This document shows, piece by piece, positions 4,160 to 15,077 of a DNA stretch of 36,489 nt (positions are counted from its first letter, which is position 1; each line of letters begins with the position of its first letter). The position numbers were made by a program, and so were the translations under genes. Origin of the DNA: a virus. The stretch spans positions 1 through 36,489 of IMG/VR virus record IMGVR_UViG_3300047552_000441. The stretch is one strand, 5' to 3'. The notes below the pieces were generated by a model. That model ran no database searches and had not been told where the DNA came from. It saw nothing but the letters and a program-made list of their open reading frames with translations.

Positions 4160-4353
4160 AATTTACCTTGAGGTTTATATGGAGGAGGTGATTTTTTAAT
4201 CTTAGGAAGACGTTTAGCAGGACGTCCTAAAGGCTTCATTACAGGTTTAATTGATTCAGCCTCCTTAGGTAATACTTTAGTATTCTCTACAGGAGCTACC
4301 TTAGAAGGTTTTACTTTAGGAGCTTTTGATTTAGTTTTCTTAGTCATCTTCAT
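4156..4353 (-). CDS. Small Lys/Pro-rich basic protein, 65 aa
   Basis: Not recognised. Very basic and low in complexity (MTKKTKSKAPKVKPSK, LPKIKKSPPPYKPQG), with one AT-hook-like GRPAKR core near residues 43-48. It could bind DNA or other polyanions, or be a disordered virion component. Two in-frame ATGs are possible (4353 and 4347), neither with a strong ribosome site. Both lie inside the end of the upstream gene, so translation is probably coupled. Its stop overlaps the next gene by 4 bases. Confidence 0.6.
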   Translation of the reverse strand: MKMTKKTKSKAPKVKPSKVAPVENTKVLPKEAESIKPVMKPLGRPAKRLPKIKKSPPPYKPQGKL

Positions 4354-4549: not shown

Positions 4550-4578
4550 ATTATAACACAAAATAAATTATTTGTCAA
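4550..4578 (-). promoter_or_regulatory. Consensus sigma-70 promoter for the leftward structural genes
   Basis: TTGACA (4578-4573), 17-base spacer ending TGT, and TATAAT (4555-4550), all on the minus strand. Upstream lies AT-rich DNA and a GGGAGGTA element that recurs at the same distance from the leftward promoter at 4960-4988. This appears to be the main promoter for genes 4549 down to at least 1131. Confidence 0.8.
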
Positions 4579-4610: not shown

Positions 4611-4781
4611 AGTACGGACCCGTAGGGGACGTTGTCTAGAGGGATAGGTACGGGATATGGTTTAAACGCATTTAAAGGGCCTTTTTAGAAGAGGAAGGGT
4701 ATAAAGATAACTACAGGTAGCTTAAACTACTCAAATCTTCTAAAAACAGTGTTTAAATTAAAAATACAGATTGTATCTGCC

Positions 4782-4958
4782 TACTAAAGTTATACTAAAG
4801 TATTATTTACTTTAAGAATATATTTTAGTATTATTTTATTTAGTAATTATACTTTAGTATTTTTTATTATAGTATTTATACTTTAGTATCTTTTACTTTA
4901 ATAATATACTTAAGTATTATTTCTATTATAATTATACTATAGATATATACTTAAGTAA
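4782..4958. repeat. Cluster of 12-bp palindromes ATACTTWAGTAT
   Basis: Exact copies of ATACTTTAGTAT, its complement ATACTAAAGTAT, or ATACTTAAGTAT lie at 4792-4803, 4849-4860, 4878-4889 and 4906-4917. Near copies lie at 4782-4790, 4820-4831 and 4947-4958. The last 25 bases (4933-4957) recur exactly at 14224-14248. The final copy begins right after the -10 box of the leftward promoter at 4960-4988, where transcription would start. Operators for a phage-encoded regulator are the simplest reading; an origin-binding role is the alternative. No obvious regulator gene was seen in the window. Confidence 0.8.
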
Positions 4959-4959
4959 T

Positions 4960-4988
4960 AGGGTAGCATACTTTTTAAGTTTTGTCAA
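4960..4988 (-). promoter_or_regulatory. Leftward promoter with operator-like palindrome at its start site
   Basis: TTGACA (4988-4983), 17-base spacer ending TGC (extended -10), then TACCCT (4965-4960). The -10 keeps only the three most conserved positions of TATAAT. Just downstream is ATTACTTAAGTA, one of the palindromes. The same arrangement, with the same unusual TACCCT, occurs at 14264-14292, which argues for function. Confidence 0.6.
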
Positions 4989-5241: not shown

Positions 5242-5508
5242 ATATTTATACTTTTCTATAGTCCGTACTAAGTTAGTCAACTAACTAACAAACTACTCAA
5301 ATTATAACATAGTAAGTAATTATCTAGTAATATCAAACACATGACTTATATATACCCGTAGTTGTACTATAGGCTACTTTTTTCTAATACGATTTCTCTT
5401 GACTGTGATAAAAATGTCACACCATTAACAGAAGATTAACACAACATTAAATTTTTGTAATGTTCAGTAACATTGTTGTAATATTTTGTAACAATTCGTG
5501 ATTGATAC

Positions 5509-5529
5509 TGTGGATAAACCTGTGGATAA
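5509..5529. promoter_or_regulatory. Two perfect DnaA boxes, 12 bp apart
   Basis: TGTGGATAA occurs at 5509-5517 and again at 5521-5529, the complement of the strong E. coli-type box TTATCCACA. Same orientation with a 12-bp period is typical of paired boxes. Single matches inside coding genes near 12260, 13184 and 25550 lack this pairing. This suggests recruitment of host DnaA at an origin or regulatory control. Confidence 0.65.
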
Positions 5530-6057: not shown

Positions 6058-6279
6058 ATGACTACTTATACAATCGGCTTTGAACGTGAATACGGCGATT
6101 TTCAAGTGCTTGTAACACTCAATAACAATGACGAGCTAATGACGCCTGTACAGTTTAGCACTTTACGCTTGCGCACTATCACGCAGCTTAAAAATGCGTT
6201 AGGCGATGATTACGAAATTGTGTGCTTAGAGCGACAAGATGCACCGGACTATATTGATTTTGAAGAAACAGCAGAATAG
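6058..6279 (+). CDS. Unknown early protein, 73 aa
   Basis: Not recognised. Begins MTTYTIGFEREYGDFQVLV and ends acidic (YIDFEETAE), probably a small alpha/beta fold. I prefer ATG at 6058, which has AAAGGA 9 bases upstream, over an in-frame ATG at 6019 that would overlap the previous gene and has no ribosome site. Confidence 0.75.
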   Translation: MTTYTIGFEREYGDFQVLVTLNNNDELMTPVQFSTLRLRTITQLKNALGDDYEIVCLERQDAPDYIDFEETAE

Positions 6280-6292
6280 GGAGCATAAGACA

Positions 6293-6574
6293 ATGACAAT
6301 CGGAAAACATGCAACAAACGTATATTACAGTGAAGAAGGTGTTAAGGTTATCTATCATTCAACCGCAGTTGTTGAGGTATTCAATGACAGGGTAAAGCTT
6401 AACACCGGAGGCTGGTTTTCAAACACCACTAAAAAGCGTATGAATCAAGCTAGCGATGCCTTTAACCTTGGTTATTCTGTATTCCAGAAAAAGGGCGTAT
6501 GGTATGCTAACTACAATGGCCAGAATCATCAATTTGAAGGCAATAGCCTGTTATTATTCAGAAAGGCGGCATAA
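6293..6574 (+). CDS. Conserved-type phage protein with LNTGGW...TKKRMNQ motif, 93 aa
   Basis: Function unknown, but the core LNTGGWFSNTTKKRMNQ followed by VFQKKGVWYANY matches a short protein type I associate with many phages. The N-terminal half (ATNVYYSEEGVKVIYHST) is beta-rich; the C-terminal helix region is basic. Start chosen at ATG 6293 with AGGGAG upstream. Conservation across phages is recalled, not checked. Confidence 0.8.
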   Translation: MTIGKHATNVYYSEEGVKVIYHSTAVVEVFNDRVKLNTGGWFSNTTKKRMNQASDAFNLGYSVFQKKGVWYANYNGQNHQFEGNSLLLFRKAA

Positions 6575-10876: not shown

Positions 10877-11353
10877 ATGAAAATCGTTACACTACCAGAG
10901 GGCTTATACAATAATCTTGTAGAGGCTATTAAAAAGATTGAAAATACACCGCAGCGGCTATCAGAAGAGCTGCGTAAAGCGGCTGAGTATATTGCCAGCG
11001 CAAGCGGTGATCCGAATAATGCAAATGCTTTGTGGTTTTTTCAAAAAGCTGATGAAGTAGTATCTGATGTAAACGTAAAAGACAAACTGCTACATAAGCT
11101 AACTACTAAGACTGGGCTTATTCTCCTGCAAAAAAACGAAAGAAAGCTAATTAAACCAATACTTAATGATATTCAAATTGATTTTTCTCATATCAATAAG
11201 TATTCTAGCTTGACAAACGTAACTAATAGTAATAAGTTTAACGGATTCCCGTTACTACAAAGGAAAATTAGAGAGAAGATAAACAAGATACAAGAGGAAC
11301 TAGCAAGTCTTTGCACTTTAGATCAAGATGTTTTTTTACAAAAAGGAGAGTAG
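10877..11353 (+). CDS. Unknown helical protein upstream of the amidoligase, 158 aa
   Basis: Not recognised. Strongly helical and charged: LYNNLVEAIKKIENTPQRLS, SEELRKAAEYIASASG, a C-terminal coiled-coil-like IREKINKIQEELASL. The middle holds a polar Asn/Ser-rich link (NKYSSLTNVTNSNKFNG). GGAGC lies 9 bases before ATG. It ends one base before the amidoligase start, so it is co-transcribed with that gene and may be its partner or target; that link rests on position alone. Confidence 0.75.
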   Translation: MKIVTLPEGLYNNLVEAIKKIENTPQRLSEELRKAAEYIASASGDPNNANALWFFQKADEVVSDVNVKDKLLHKLTTKTGLILLQKNERKLIKPILNDIQIDFSHINKYSSLTNVTNSNKFNGFPLLQRKIREKINKIQEELASLCTLDQDVFLQKGE

Positions 11354-11354
11354 T

Positions 11355-12305
11355 ATGTACGCCCCAGAATTAGGAAAAGTCTATGCCTATAGCACTAATC
11401 CGTTAAGTTATCTACAGTTTATTCATCTTGAACATGAAAAAGATGGTGAATTTGAGCCACTTACATATTATGGCGTAGAGCTTGAAGTAGTGCCTAAACG
11501 CGCACCAATTACTACCTATAAGAAGATCCACTCTGCACTTGGTGCTGATTTTGCTATACTGAAAGCAGATTCTAGCCTACCAGAAAAAGGTGTAGAAATT
11601 GTTACCGCACCTGCAACACTTGATGCGCATAAAAAGCTATGGAAACCGTTTTTTGATAGTGCTGCATCTTCTTTAGTAGAAAGCTATGCAAGTAGCTCTT
11701 GTGGTATGCACGTACATATTAACAACGATTCTTTTGCAAATGCTAACCACCTGGGCAAAATGATTGCTTTTTATAACTGCCCAGTAAACAGACAGTTTAT
11801 CACCCGCATTGCAGGTAGAGAGTCAGGTTATGCACGCTTTAATAGTGCGTACAATGCGTACTCAGCAAAACTGTTACTAAACCAAAAAAGCACTATGCCA
11901 AATGCGTATATGGGTGGCGGTGAGCGTAGGAGTGCAGTTAATGTTACGTCTAAAGGTACAGTAGAGATTCGTATCTTTAAGGGCAATGTAGCACGTATTG
12001 GATTCTTTAAAAACCTTGAATTTGTAGATTCTGTAAAAGAATACTCAAAATTAATTTGGTTTAGTCCCCTTAGTGAGCGTAGGGCAAGGGAGGTGTATGA
12101 TCCTAAACGTGAAGAAACCCATTCTTATAGCTTGTTATTTAAGGATTATTTGGCATGGCTTGAACGCGATAAGACAGGTCGCTATACAAACCTTAAACTG
12201 TGGCTGTCTAAGAATGACTTAACCAAGCCTATCCAACTTAGATACACAGAGAAAACACCTGTGGATAAAATTATTACTGATGAAAATATCTTAGCTGTAG
12301 CGTAA
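11355..12305 (+). CDS. Amidoligase-like enzyme (COOH-NH2 ligase family), 316 aa
   Basis: Probable ATP-dependent ligase that forms an amide bond between a carboxyl group and an amine. Motifs fit the phage amidoligase family (Amidoligase_2 type, related to glutamine synthetase): YYGVELEV at 38-45, KADSSL at 70-75, VEIVTAP at 80-86, SCGMHVHIN near 115-123 and TVEIRIFKGN near 202-211. Alternating Glu and His/Arg residues in these strands are the expected metal and ATP ligands. ATG 11355 has GGAGAG upstream; an in-frame start at 11328 is less likely. A class II glutamine amidotransferase follows 11 bases later, a partnership described for this family and consistent with ammonia taken from glutamine. 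Substrate unknown. Confidence 0.8.
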   Translation: MYAPELGKVYAYSTNPLSYLQFIHLEHEKDGEFEPLTYYGVELEVVPKRAPITTYKKIHSALGADFAILKADSSLPEKGVEIVTAPATLDAHKKLWKPFFDSAASSLVESYASSSCGMHVHINNDSFANANHLGKMIAFYNCPVNRQFITRIAGRESGYARFNSAYNAYSAKLLLNQKSTMPNAYMGGGERRSAVNVTSKGTVEIRIFKGNVARIGFFKNLEFVDSVKEYSKLIWFSPLSERRAREVYDPKREETHSYSLLFKDYLAWLERDKTGRYTNLKLWLSKNDLTKPIQLRYTEKTPVDKIITDENILAVA

Positions 12306-12316
12306 AGGAATATAAT

Positions 12317-13351
12317 ATGTGCTTAATTGTTGTAAAAGATACTAAAAAAGGCGTTTTTACTGACGCTAATTTCAATGCCTCGTATAATCGTAACTCTGAC
12401 GGTATGGGTATTATGTGGCTAGAAGATGGGCGTGTAAAGGTAGAGCGTGTATTAGGCACACTTGCTCAGCAACGCTTTGTGTGGAACAAACATAAACATA
12501 AGGATATGTGGGTACTACACCAACGCTATGCTACGCATGGATCAAAGGCTAAGATGCTAGAAAACTGCCACCCGTACAAGATTATGGATATGGATGATGG
12601 TGACGTTATGGACATCTACATGGCGCATAATGGTGTTATTAGTGATACAGAAACTACGGATGCCTCTATGAGTGATACGTGGAACTTTATCGAAAACCAT
12701 ATTAAGCCTATTGTTAAGCATAATCCTGAGCTGCTGTGGAATGATGCATTTCAGATGATGATTAATAAATACATTGGTAGCGGTTCTAAGCTAGTGGTGT
12801 TGTCTAATCGTAAAAAAGATCCTATGCTTATCTTTAATGAAGAGGCAGGTACTGTGGTAAATGGCTGTTGGTTGTCAAATACTTACAGCATTACCCCAAC
12901 AGTAACTACGCATAAGCCTATTGCTGCTCCGTACAGACATACTAGCTCGTATCTTAGCAATTACGCTAAGCCAACTGAAAAGGCGTTTTGTATGCCTGAC
13001 ATTACTGCCTGGAAAGAGGATTGCAAGCAGGCTGTATTAGAAGGTACTCTTGATATTGAAGATGTTAAATCCGAATTTACAGAGGAAGAACTTAACTATT
13101 TAGAAGTAGAATTAGACGAACTTGAAGATCAATTTGATAGTGAGTTTGTAGATTCTATTAATGCTGTGTACGATCCAGAGAATGTGGATAAAGACCAGCT
13201 AAAAATACTCGTCGATAAAATCGCTAAAGAGTTTAACTATGTTGACTTAGAGCGACTTATTGACGTGTTACCGCAAGTTGCAGCGGATGTGATGGAGCAT
13301 TTGCTCTCATCATATGTAAGCAACCAGCTATTTGACGAACAAGCTGCTTAA
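12317..13351 (+). CDS. Class II glutamine amidotransferase-like protein, 344 aa
   Basis: N-terminal nucleophile hydrolase fold that releases ammonia from glutamine. Cys2 follows the initiator Met (MCLIVV), as needed for an N-terminal cysteine nucleophile. NSDGMGI (26-32), HQRYATHG (68-75; compare RWATHG in GlmS) and AHNGVI (103-108) are the expected glutamine-site motifs. After about residue 220 comes a C-terminal part not typical of GlmS, very acidic (SEFTEEELNYLEVELDELED) and probably helical; there is no sugar isomerase domain. It sits 11 bases after the amidoligase with a good ribosome site (AAAGGA), so the two probably act as one ammonia-using enzyme system. Confidence 0.85.
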   Translation: MCLIVVKDTKKGVFTDANFNASYNRNSDGMGIMWLEDGRVKVERVLGTLAQQRFVWNKHKHKDMWVLHQRYATHGSKAKMLENCHPYKIMDMDDGDVMDIYMAHNGVISDTETTDASMSDTWNFIENHIKPIVKHNPELLWNDAFQMMINKYIGSGSKLVVLSNRKKDPMLIFNEEAGTVVNGCWLSNTYSITPTVTTHKPIAAPYRHTSSYLSNYAKPTEKAFCMPDITAWKEDCKQAVLEGTLDIEDVKSEFTEEELNYLEVELDELEDQFDSEFVDSINAVYDPENVDKDQLKILVDKIAKEFNYVDLERLIDVLPQVAADVMEHLLSSYVSNQLFDEQAA

Positions 13352-13630: not shown

Positions 13631-13639
13631 CGAGGTCTT

Positions 13640-13660
13640 GGGGAGGCATGTAGCTTCCCC
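13640..13660 (+). terminator. Rho-independent terminator after the amidoligase operon
   Basis: Stem GGGGAGGC (13640-13647) with GCTTCCCC (13653-13660), eight pairs including one G-T, 5-base loop, then a T/C-rich run. It begins 10 bases after the stop codon. The T run is weak, so some read-through is likely. Confidence 0.6.
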
Positions 13661-13707
13661 ATCCTTTCTCTCTTAAAAACACGGTTTAAATTAGAATGTG
13701 AGGCATT

Positions 13708-13980
13708 ATGGAAGGGGTAGAGAGGTTGGCAGTAGCTATAATCAAGCAAGCTGTTGCAGATGCGTGTAAAGATACGGACAGAATAAAAAACACTATCAAG
13801 AAAAAGATTGCAGAAAAAGAAAAATACGAAGCTACTAAGTTTTTAACTACAAGGAATGATGATCTTAAGTATTGGTGCAATATAGCTAATTTAGATTTTG
13901 AGGTGTGTTATGCTGCGGTTAGTAAAGTCAAAACTGAAAAGTCTTTTTGGAAGAAAATCCTTAAAGAAATTGAGGCTTAG
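13708..13980 (+). CDS. Unknown basic helical protein, 90 aa
   Basis: Not recognised. Lys-rich and helical: VAIIKQAVADACKDTDRIKN, KKKIAEKEKYEATKF, ending KSFWKKILKEIEA. GAGG lies before ATG. The sequence 5' of the gene (about 13673-13694) resembles 4741-4760, next to the palindrome cluster, so a shared control element is possible. It overlaps the next gene by 71 bases. Confidence 0.65.
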   Translation: MEGVERLAVAIIKQAVADACKDTDRIKNTIKKKIAEKEKYEATKFLTTRNDDLKYWCNIANLDFEVCYAAVSKVKTEKSFWKKILKEIEA

Positions 13981-14182
13981 TAATGCCTCTAAGTATGGGG
14001 TGGAATTTTACTCTAACTATGTGTATTCTGAAGCTAGGATACATACAGCAAGTGGATATTGGACATATTCTGAGCTAAGATTGCCCATAAACAATGTTAC
14101 TGATGAAGAGCTGGATAAATACATACAGGAAATTATATACAAGCTACTTGTTTTAAAATCTTGCTATACGCTACTTAAGTAA
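13910..14182 (+). CDS. Unknown basic protein, 90 aa
   Basis: Not recognised. Start chosen at ATG 13910, with GAGG 6 bases upstream; ATG 13898 lacks a site. The N-terminus is basic (LRLVKSKLKSLFGRKSLKK), the rest is mixed alpha/beta with many aromatics (GVEFYSNYVYSEARIHTAS). The long overlap with the gene before it is unusual even here. The first 23 codons might be an artefact, but the frame after 13980 is free and looks coding. Confidence 0.6.
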   Translation: MLRLVKSKLKSLFGRKSLKKLRLSNASKYGVEFYSNYVYSEARIHTASGYWTYSELRLPINNVTDEELDKYIQEIIYKLLVLKSCYTLLK

Positions 14183-14260
14183 TTACTATAGTATTTATTC
14201 TTAAGTATTATTACTATAATAAATATACTATAGATATATACTTAAGTATTACTTAAGTAA
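14172..14260. repeat. Second cluster of ATACTTAAGTAT-type palindromes
   Basis: Palindromes at 14172-14181 (TACTTAAGTA), 14184-14193 (TACTATAGTA), 14197-14208 (one mismatch), 14238-14249 (exact ATACTTAAGTAT) and 14249-14260 (TTACTTAAGTAA). Bases 14224-14248 match 4933-4957 exactly. As at the first cluster, the array ends at the -10 of a leftward TTGACA/TACCCT promoter. Read rightward, it lies directly before the primase gene. Operator array is the leading interpretation. Confidence 0.8.
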
Positions 14261-14263
14261 TTT

Positions 14264-14292
14264 AGGGTAACACATAACTTTTATTTTGTCAA
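14264..14292 (-). promoter_or_regulatory. Leftward promoter-like element, antisense to the upstream genes
   Basis: TTGACA (14292-14287), 17-base spacer ending TGT, TACCCT (14269-14264) on the minus strand, with a palindrome at the expected start. It matches the element at 4960-4988 in every part. It points away from the primase and would make RNA antisense to 14182 and below. The -35 lies 2 bases before the primase ATG. Confidence 0.5.
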
Positions 14293-14294
14293 GT

Positions 14295-15077
14295 ATGAAA
14301 ATAGATATTTTAGCAAATTCTGTACAAGATGGTGAATCTAGGCGTTTTGATTGCCCGTTTTGCGGTGGAAATCAATCACTTAGTATTTCTAAGAATGGTA
14401 ATAAGATCCTGTACAACTGTTTTAGGGCTATTTGTGCTAAAAACGGTAGTGTTGGGTATGTACCGTCTTTAGATGCCTTAAAATCACGTTTAAATGCACC
14501 AAGCAAAGCAGAGGAGAAGTTTTTTATACCTGACTACTGGGTACATGGTGTTTCTTCTGAAAAGACCATTAAAATGCTTTTAAAGACTAATTCGTATGAA
14601 GCATACAAAAACGGTAACTTTAGGGTTGCGTATGACCCTAGGGAGGATAGGCTTGTATATCTCGTACAGGATGTACAAGGTAGCATGGTAGGTGCTGTAG
14701 GTAGAACTTTATCCAATGCTGTACCTAAAACGTTAAACTACCCAGGATCTGCGCCTGTACCTTTTAATGCTTGTGGTAAATCCTGTACAAAGCTAGTTAT
14801 TGTTGAGGATTGTGCATCAGCTTGTGCTATATCTGAAATACCAGGGGTACGAGGTATGGCGTTGCTTGGTACATACTTACGCAAAGATTATATACCCTTT
14901 ATGGCAAGGCATCTTGATGTGTACATAGCATTAGATTACGATGCTAGAAAAAAAGCACTTGACATGAAGCAAAGATTGCTGTATTATTGCAAAAAAGTAA
15001 ATGTTATTATTTTAGATAAAGATATAAAAGACATGACCTTGAACGAAAGAGAGAACCTATTTTATGCACCACGATGA
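14295..15077 (+). CDS. DNA primase (zinc ribbon plus TOPRIM), 260 aa
   Basis: Makes RNA primers for lagging-strand synthesis. An N-terminal zinc-ribbon pattern, C20-x2-C23 (DCPFCGG) with C42 and C47 (YNCFRAICAKN), resembles the template-reading finger of T7 gp4-type primases. The TOPRIM core is visible: VIVED at 168-172 (catalytic Glu), LLGT near 190-193 and ALDYDA at 212-217 (metal-binding Asp pair). It lacks a helicase domain; the helicase is a separate gene at 19967, so the T7 gp4 functions are split here. ATG 14295 is preferred; there is no ribosome site, and the palindrome cluster with a TTGTCA run precedes it, so translation may be unusual. Confidence 0.85.
   Translation: MKIDILANSVQDGESRRFDCPFCGGNQSLSISKNGNKILYNCFRAICAKNGSVGYVPSLDALKSRLNAPSKAEEKFFIPDYWVHGVSSEKTIKMLLKTNSYEAYKNGNFRVAYDPREDRLVYLVQDVQGSMVGAVGRTLSNAVPKTLNYPGSAPVPFNACGKSCTKLVIVEDCASACAISEIPGVRGMALLGTYLRKDYIPFMARHLDVYIALDYDARKKALDMKQRLLYYCKKVNVIILDKDIKDMTLNERENLFYAPR
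14959..14987 (+). promoter_or_regulatory. Possible internal promoter before the NAD genes
   Basis: TTGACA, 17-base spacer, TATTAT, inside the end of the primase gene and about 75 bases before the Nudix gene. No extended -10. Coding constraint could create it by chance. Confidence 0.3.

Follow-up and report, generated by a model that had tools for sequence, protein, structure and literature searches.

The DNA analysed here (the window) is a stretch of 36,489 bases from a virus record and represents a fragment of a phage genome. Rightward genes occupy 5.8–34.8 kb, and leftward genes, which include tail, small-terminase-like and lysis functions, lie at 0.07–4.56 and 34.9–36.5 kb. The gene set of the HMO-2011-type podoviruses (primase, DnaB-like helicase and PolA) is present, and the primase and DNA polymerase have their nearest counterparts in this group, for example in Pelagibacter phage HTVC033P and the Roseobacter phages CRP-212 and CRP-3, at about 28–44% identity. 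Because identity to the cultured members is low (24–34% for the primase and 38–45% for PolA; the helicase reaches 39% with related contigs), the phage is, judged by these proteins, a distant relative of the HMO-2011-type podoviruses. BLAST comparison of the window with cultured phages gave no match, the window ORFs scanned included no recognisable phage RNA polymerase, and no Rfam families or tRNAs were found. We note also that genes for an amidoligase-like protein and a class II glutamine amidotransferase are adjacent at 11328–13351, and that the two are paired in two other contigs (L006 and G004) as well.

Two similar promoter-plus-palindrome modules flank the early block (5.8–14.2 kb), module 1 on its left and module 2 on its right, next to the primase gene (Table 1). 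The initial annotation had pointed to a 25-nucleotide exact match between 14224–14248 and 4933–4957; this match is real, exceeds every other non-self repeat of the window in length, and is contained in a longer block of 91% identity. In 5,000 Markov-1 simulations of both AT-rich regions the longest common substring had a mean of 10 and never exceeded 19. The identical TTGACA-N17-TACCCT layout, pointing leftward, is also found at both loci as had been described (14292–14264 and 4988–4960), both promoters have an extended −10 (TGn), and the hexamers and 17-base spacing conform to a sigma70 pattern of TTGACA and TAnnnT separated by 16–18 bp. Both hexamers are the same in the two promoters although their spacers are not, a pattern suggestive of selection on the hexamers.

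Table 1. Features of the two modules and their surroundings in the window.
Feature	Position	Strand	Remarks
Late-arm promoter	786–814	−	Consensus TTGACA-N17(TG)-TATAAT; no operator at +1, unlike the modules
Late-arm promoter	4550–4578	−	Consensus TTGACA-N17(TG)-TATAAT; no operator at +1, unlike the modules
Module 1 operator array	4782–4957		Sites at 4782, 4793, 4821, 4850, 4865, 4879, 4894, 4907, 4935 (weaker) and 4948; period about 28–29; 87.5% A+T
Module 1 −10, TACCCT	4960–4965	−	Preceded by TG
Module 1 −35, TTGACA	4983–4988	−	
Small ORF, phrog_7024	13708–13980	+	No function assigned; antisense to the leftward module 2 transcript if this passes 13972
Small ORF	13898–14182	+	Antisense to the predicted leftward module 2 transcript; stop codon within the first palindrome (at 14172)
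Terminator-like hairpin, weak	13972–13989	−	GAGGC/GCCTC, −7.2 kcal/mol; could end a predicted RNA of about 290 nt from module 2
Module 2 operator array	14172–14259		TACTWWAGTA-like sites: exact at 14172, 14184, 14239 and 14250; one mismatch at 14198 and 14212; weaker at 14226; 85% A+T
56-nt repeat block	14196–14251 and 4905–4960		91% identical; contains the 25-nt match
Module 2 −10, TACCCT	14264–14269	−	Preceded by TG; start predicted from the spacing at about 14257
Module 2 −35, TTGACA	14287–14292	−	Overlaps the primase TTG start codon (14286–14288)
DNA primase	14286–15077	+	phrog_47, E 1.2e-21; closest to HMO-2011-type primases

Downstream of each −10 lies an array of palindromes, the first of which covers the predicted start site in both modules. 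Module 2 has seven sites (four exact copies of TACTWWAGTA, two with one mismatch and one weaker), so that the five palindromes previously counted were a fair estimate, and module 1 has ten (five exact, four with one mismatch and one weaker). About 0.1 exact sites would be expected by chance in each region, and beyond the two arrays the exact sequence occurs just once in the window, in coding sequence at 4273. RNA of the arrays folds better than shuffled sequences (z about −3 to −3.7), but we set leader structure aside as evidence, as palindromes force good folding. Inspection for CtrA boxes revealed one TTAA-N7-TTAA where two palindromes are 11 bp apart, which is not general across the sites, and this reading was dropped. 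To the left of each module lies a second shared element (TAAAAACAnnGTTTAAATTA, at 4739–4763 and 13672–13696), which has only these two occurrences in the window; its alignment score only equalled that of the best-scoring of 300 shuffles, and it may be due to chance. A strong rightward terminator-like hairpin (13632–13661, about −19.5 kcal/mol) lies between the early block and the pre-primase genes, and the interval from it to the primase yielded no good rightward promoter. At the perfect TTGACA-N17-TATAAT promoter at 786–814 the predicted start coincides with the ATG of the ORF at 385–780, raising the possibility of a leaderless message.

Conservation of position in related phages, which the initial annotation had proposed as a check, is not seen among the cultured HMO-2011-type members, whose examined stretches have no such palindrome array upstream of the primase. 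No palindrome cluster is present in the stretches examined of HMO-2011, HTVC033P, CRP-212, CRP-3, CRP-345 and CRP-1, and the module as a whole is absent from the examined genomes or stretches of these six and of HTVC115P, HTVC103P, CRP-143, HTVC109P, SIO1, VpV262, ICBM1 and Alteromonas phage R8W. BLAST of the module gave no match, and short consensus matches were weak and were discarded, the one in Vibrio phage 1.138.O being located within a coding ORF. A full-text literature search, of incomplete coverage, recovered no relevant phage paper on the TACCCT motif, and the main paper on the HMO-2011-type phages makes no mention of promoters, palindromes or operators (PMC9038755).

Copies of the module are present in contigs of unrelated uncultured phages, frequently next to replication genes. 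A first loose scan (TACTTAAGTA-N{0,12}-AGGGTA) yielded clusters in few of the matches listed. A scan of IMG/VR for TTGACA-N17-TACCCT-N(0-14)-ACTWWAGT identified 73 contigs, which reduce to 42 distinct sequences once duplicates are removed; most of these 42 belong to one related phage group and are hence not independent, with copies present in at least three phage groups besides that of the window. The query accepted anything from 0 to 14 bases between TACCCT and the operator, yet the observed distance is nearly fixed, being 2 bases in 32 of the copies, 3 in one, 5 in two, 13 in five and 14 in two, and chance matches must therefore be few; in the copies with a distance of 13, an imperfect operator occupies the usual position. 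Alignment reveals that the −35, TGn, −10 and operator are conserved and that the spacers have diverged. Most contigs have the promoter within the 3′-terminal part of a small gene for a zinc-ribbon protein (ending, for example, in DYDTLY and a stop), so that part of the conservation may be coding; this context is apparently not shared by the window or by L226, L234, L272 and L273. When the −35 was omitted from the query and TACCCT with two operators was required, nine contigs were recovered, six of which have TTGACA or TTGACT at 17 bases; the other three (L408–L410) are close relatives that have TACCCT and an array with no recognisable −35. Because the −35 recurs at this distance in matches retrieved without it, we consider it very likely that the module contains a genuine promoter. 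In 257 billion bases of bacterial and archaeal genome sequence the layout of promoter and operator is nearly absent, with four scattered matches.

The palindrome is not confined to arrays. Relaxing the −10 to TAnnnT extended the scan to at least 120 contigs, in which the number of operators depends on the type of promoter that they accompany. In the 150 bp following a TACCCT promoter there is a mean of 5.0 further operators against a Markov expectation of 1.4, with at least three in 95% of cases, and operators are found predominantly downstream (5.9 per 150 bp, compared with 0.57 upstream). TATAAT and TATACT promoters are followed by a mean of 0.9 and a median of 0, so that the total is about six operators after TACCCT and usually one at TATAAT or TATACT; the six TAATAT promoters have arrays too. 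One group of contigs is referred to here as Zobellviridae-like, a name inferred from a gene order (primase/helicase, DNA polymerase, Cas4-like exonuclease, endonuclease, RNR) that matches SIO1 and ICBM1. Among contigs of this group selected by TACCCT alone, nine of the ten that hold a gene starting MTPELETY show, before this gene, a sigma70 promoter whose +1 carries one operator. The gene is near the scaffold and capsid genes, and its promoter is a late one. Because a single +1 operator is found here also, the operator, as far as its placement indicates, takes part in the transcriptional control of several promoters of these phages. The late promoters of the cultured Zobellviridae SIO1 and ICBM1 are similar in having TTGACA-N17-TATAAT and a common motif at the start site, but that motif is AGTCTTAACAAGTCT rather than ACTWWAGT and there is no array; the promoters at 37512 and 8612 in SIO1 (L413) and at 39888 and 29377 in ICBM1 (L415), all on the minus strand, share TATAAT-AGTCTTAACAAGTCTCCC.

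The direction of the promoter relative to neighbouring genes varies among phages. In the Zobellviridae-like group it reads into genes for an ssDNA-binding-protein-like product, a primase-helicase and a polymerase. In three other contigs (G003/L272, L234 and L273) it is back to back with a TATACT promoter of terminase or tail genes, facing away from them, and in G003 it aims at the replication genes if the contig is circular. G004 (L226) has a leftward TACCCT promoter flanked on both sides by rightward genes, and its −35 overlaps the start codon of the gene to its right (ATGTCAAG), the same arrangement as module 2 has at the primase. The constant feature of the module is its position at gene-block borders, not its direction. 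The antisense orientation originally described for module 2 is thus real in the window and in G004, but antisense RNA is not the general purpose of the module, because the promoters of the Zobellviridae-like, G003, L234 and L273 contigs face replication genes or away from late genes. The accompanying proposal of a coordinated switch survives in part: the positions at gene-block borders and the promoter geometry conserved elsewhere fit coordinated control, and it is the antisense direction that does not generalise.

Profile searches identified no small DNA-binding protein common to the window and the other module-bearing phages, and the proteins shared between phage groups are mainly of metabolic, nuclease, structural, terminase and amidoligase types. 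Sharing of phrog_7024 and phrog_554 was not convincing, and a profile link between the window ORF at 6239–6574 and an early family of the Zobellviridae-like group (8.8e-6) is not specific evidence; neither was retained. A small ORF with a sigma-region-4-like HTH (EEIAKALGISRAQVQVIE) accompanies the module in no more than 23 of the 52 contigs that carry it. In Zobellviridae-like contigs it lies some 520–830 bp upstream of the module (for example, L056 3065–3253), and it is a candidate regulator in that group.

We favor, with a probability of roughly 0.55, the explanation that the module is a regulated sigma70 phage promoter gated by a multi-site palindromic operator at the borders of gene blocks. 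Host sigma70 RNA polymerase would use TTGACA-N14-TGn-TACCCT, a promoter expected to be weak owing to its GC-rich −10. A palindromic operator, ACTWWAGT (usually TACTWWAGTA), would lie across the start site and be followed downstream by about five more, mostly in steps of 11–14 bp, such that the putative binding sites would cover the start site and the first 85–180 bases. A dimeric and probably phage-encoded regulator may bind the array cooperatively and hide the start site; a protein centred on a start site normally represses. The bound array may also form a roadblock to polymerase arriving from the other side, and that of module 2, which would lie in the path of rightward polymerases bound for the primase, could gate transcription into the primase and replication genes. 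When free, module 2 would produce a short leftward RNA antisense to the ORF at 13898–14182, and module 1 would drive transcription of the leftward late arm. In favor of this explanation are the near-constant operator distance, the recurrence of the −35 in matches retrieved without it, the arrays downstream of TACCCT, the single operator before the MTPELETY gene, the rarity of the layout in cellular genomes and the start-codon overlap common to module 2 and G004. The sequence, spacing and conservation and the link of arrays with TACCCT are thus observed, and from them the regulator, the direction of its effect, the roadblock and the RNAs are inferred. Against this explanation, no binding protein emerged from the profile searches, the late promoters of the window are without operators, and the L408–L410 array is without a −35. 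A more speculative and doubtful extension is that the module is a portable cassette, consisting of a slow-melting TACCCT promoter and an operator array for a phage protein, that is exchanged between unrelated podoviruses and times the move from early functions to replication, possibly by itself being a site where replication begins.

Many copies of one short phage operator are a feature shared with the stoperators of the cluster A mycobacteriophages L5 and Bxb1, some of which are in promoters and some of which can stop elongation (PMC6550527). Stoperators are asymmetric 13-bp sites, oriented with transcription, dispersed through the genome and bound by an immunity repressor, whereas the module sites are palindromic, mostly 11–14 bp apart, and clustered after a TACCCT promoter at one or two loci. 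The ORFs scanned in the window, itself a fragment, gave no match to a repressor.

The suggestion that the two modules are origin-like sites deserves weighing in the form of a transcription-primed replication origin, in which host polymerase starting at TACCCT makes an RNA that primes the leading strand, the AT-rich array either melts or is bound by an initiator, and the two modules are two origins. In T7 the primary origin, situated upstream of replication genes, consists of a promoter with an AT-rich stretch after it, and the module resembles this, with an array of 85–88% A+T downstream of a promoter and adjoining replication genes in the window, in the Zobellviridae-like group and, if circular, in G003; a varying orientation to neighbouring genes also suits a cis-acting DNA element. 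It departs from T7 in that the promoter is of the host sigma70 type, palindromes in an ordered array make up the AT-rich stretch, and no phage RNA polymerase was recognised in the window ORFs scanned. Two perfect DnaA boxes lie in the same 1.2-kb noncoding region as module 1, but none are present at module 2 (the nearest is at 13183), GC skew does not change at 14.2 kb, and the single operator at +1 of the Zobellviridae-like late promoters is not something an origin needs. We therefore see no direct support for two origins and regard this explanation as unlikely, while noting that lytic phages need not show a switch in strand composition at an origin. GC skew does change near 5–5.5 kb, where the genes also switch direction. 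The DnaA boxes (TGTGGATAA, at 5509 and 5521) span 5509–5529, are 12 bp apart and about 550 bp from module 1, and lie in the divergent noncoding region beside a 21-nt tandem repeat (5451–5493); this only such pair, as a candidate identified by motif, is a better origin lead than either module.

Alternatively, module 2 could act chiefly as a convergent antisense promoter, one that modulates rightward transcription into the replication genes and is controlled by the palindromes. Its promoter, which faces rightward transcription, overlaps the first replication gene at the start codon, a weak leftward terminator-like hairpin follows (13989–13972), and G004 has the same layout. The nearest described arrangement, for module 2 only, is that of lambda pO/oop: in the part of one account that describes it, pO opposes pR from a position at the start of gene O and has an influence on the initiation of replication, its loss affecting replication, and no operator array is found there (PMC3985674). 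Most relatives of the module have a promoter codirectional with the replication genes, module 1 is without a mapped convergent partner, and the hairpin is weak, and we consider this explanation rather improbable. It is very unlikely that the palindromes bind something non-transcriptional, such as a segregation, packaging or host nucleoid protein, with the promoter an accidental neighbour; the L408–L410 arrays with no recognisable −35 would suit this, but the fixed distance from TACCCT, the downstream-only sites and the conservation of the −35 argue against it. Functionless drift of low-complexity sequence has in its favor that the region is noncoding and very AT-rich, but it seems extremely unlikely, and is already disfavoured by comparison across phages, given hexamers and operators conserved in several groups while spacers diverge, and the Markov controls.

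For abundant uncultured podoviruses that seem to depend on host RNA polymerase, little is understood of how replication is timed. A conserved and easily searchable promoter-operator signature would predict which genes are co-regulated and could provide bait for the regulator, and it would be testable in a laboratory strain in place of the native hosts.
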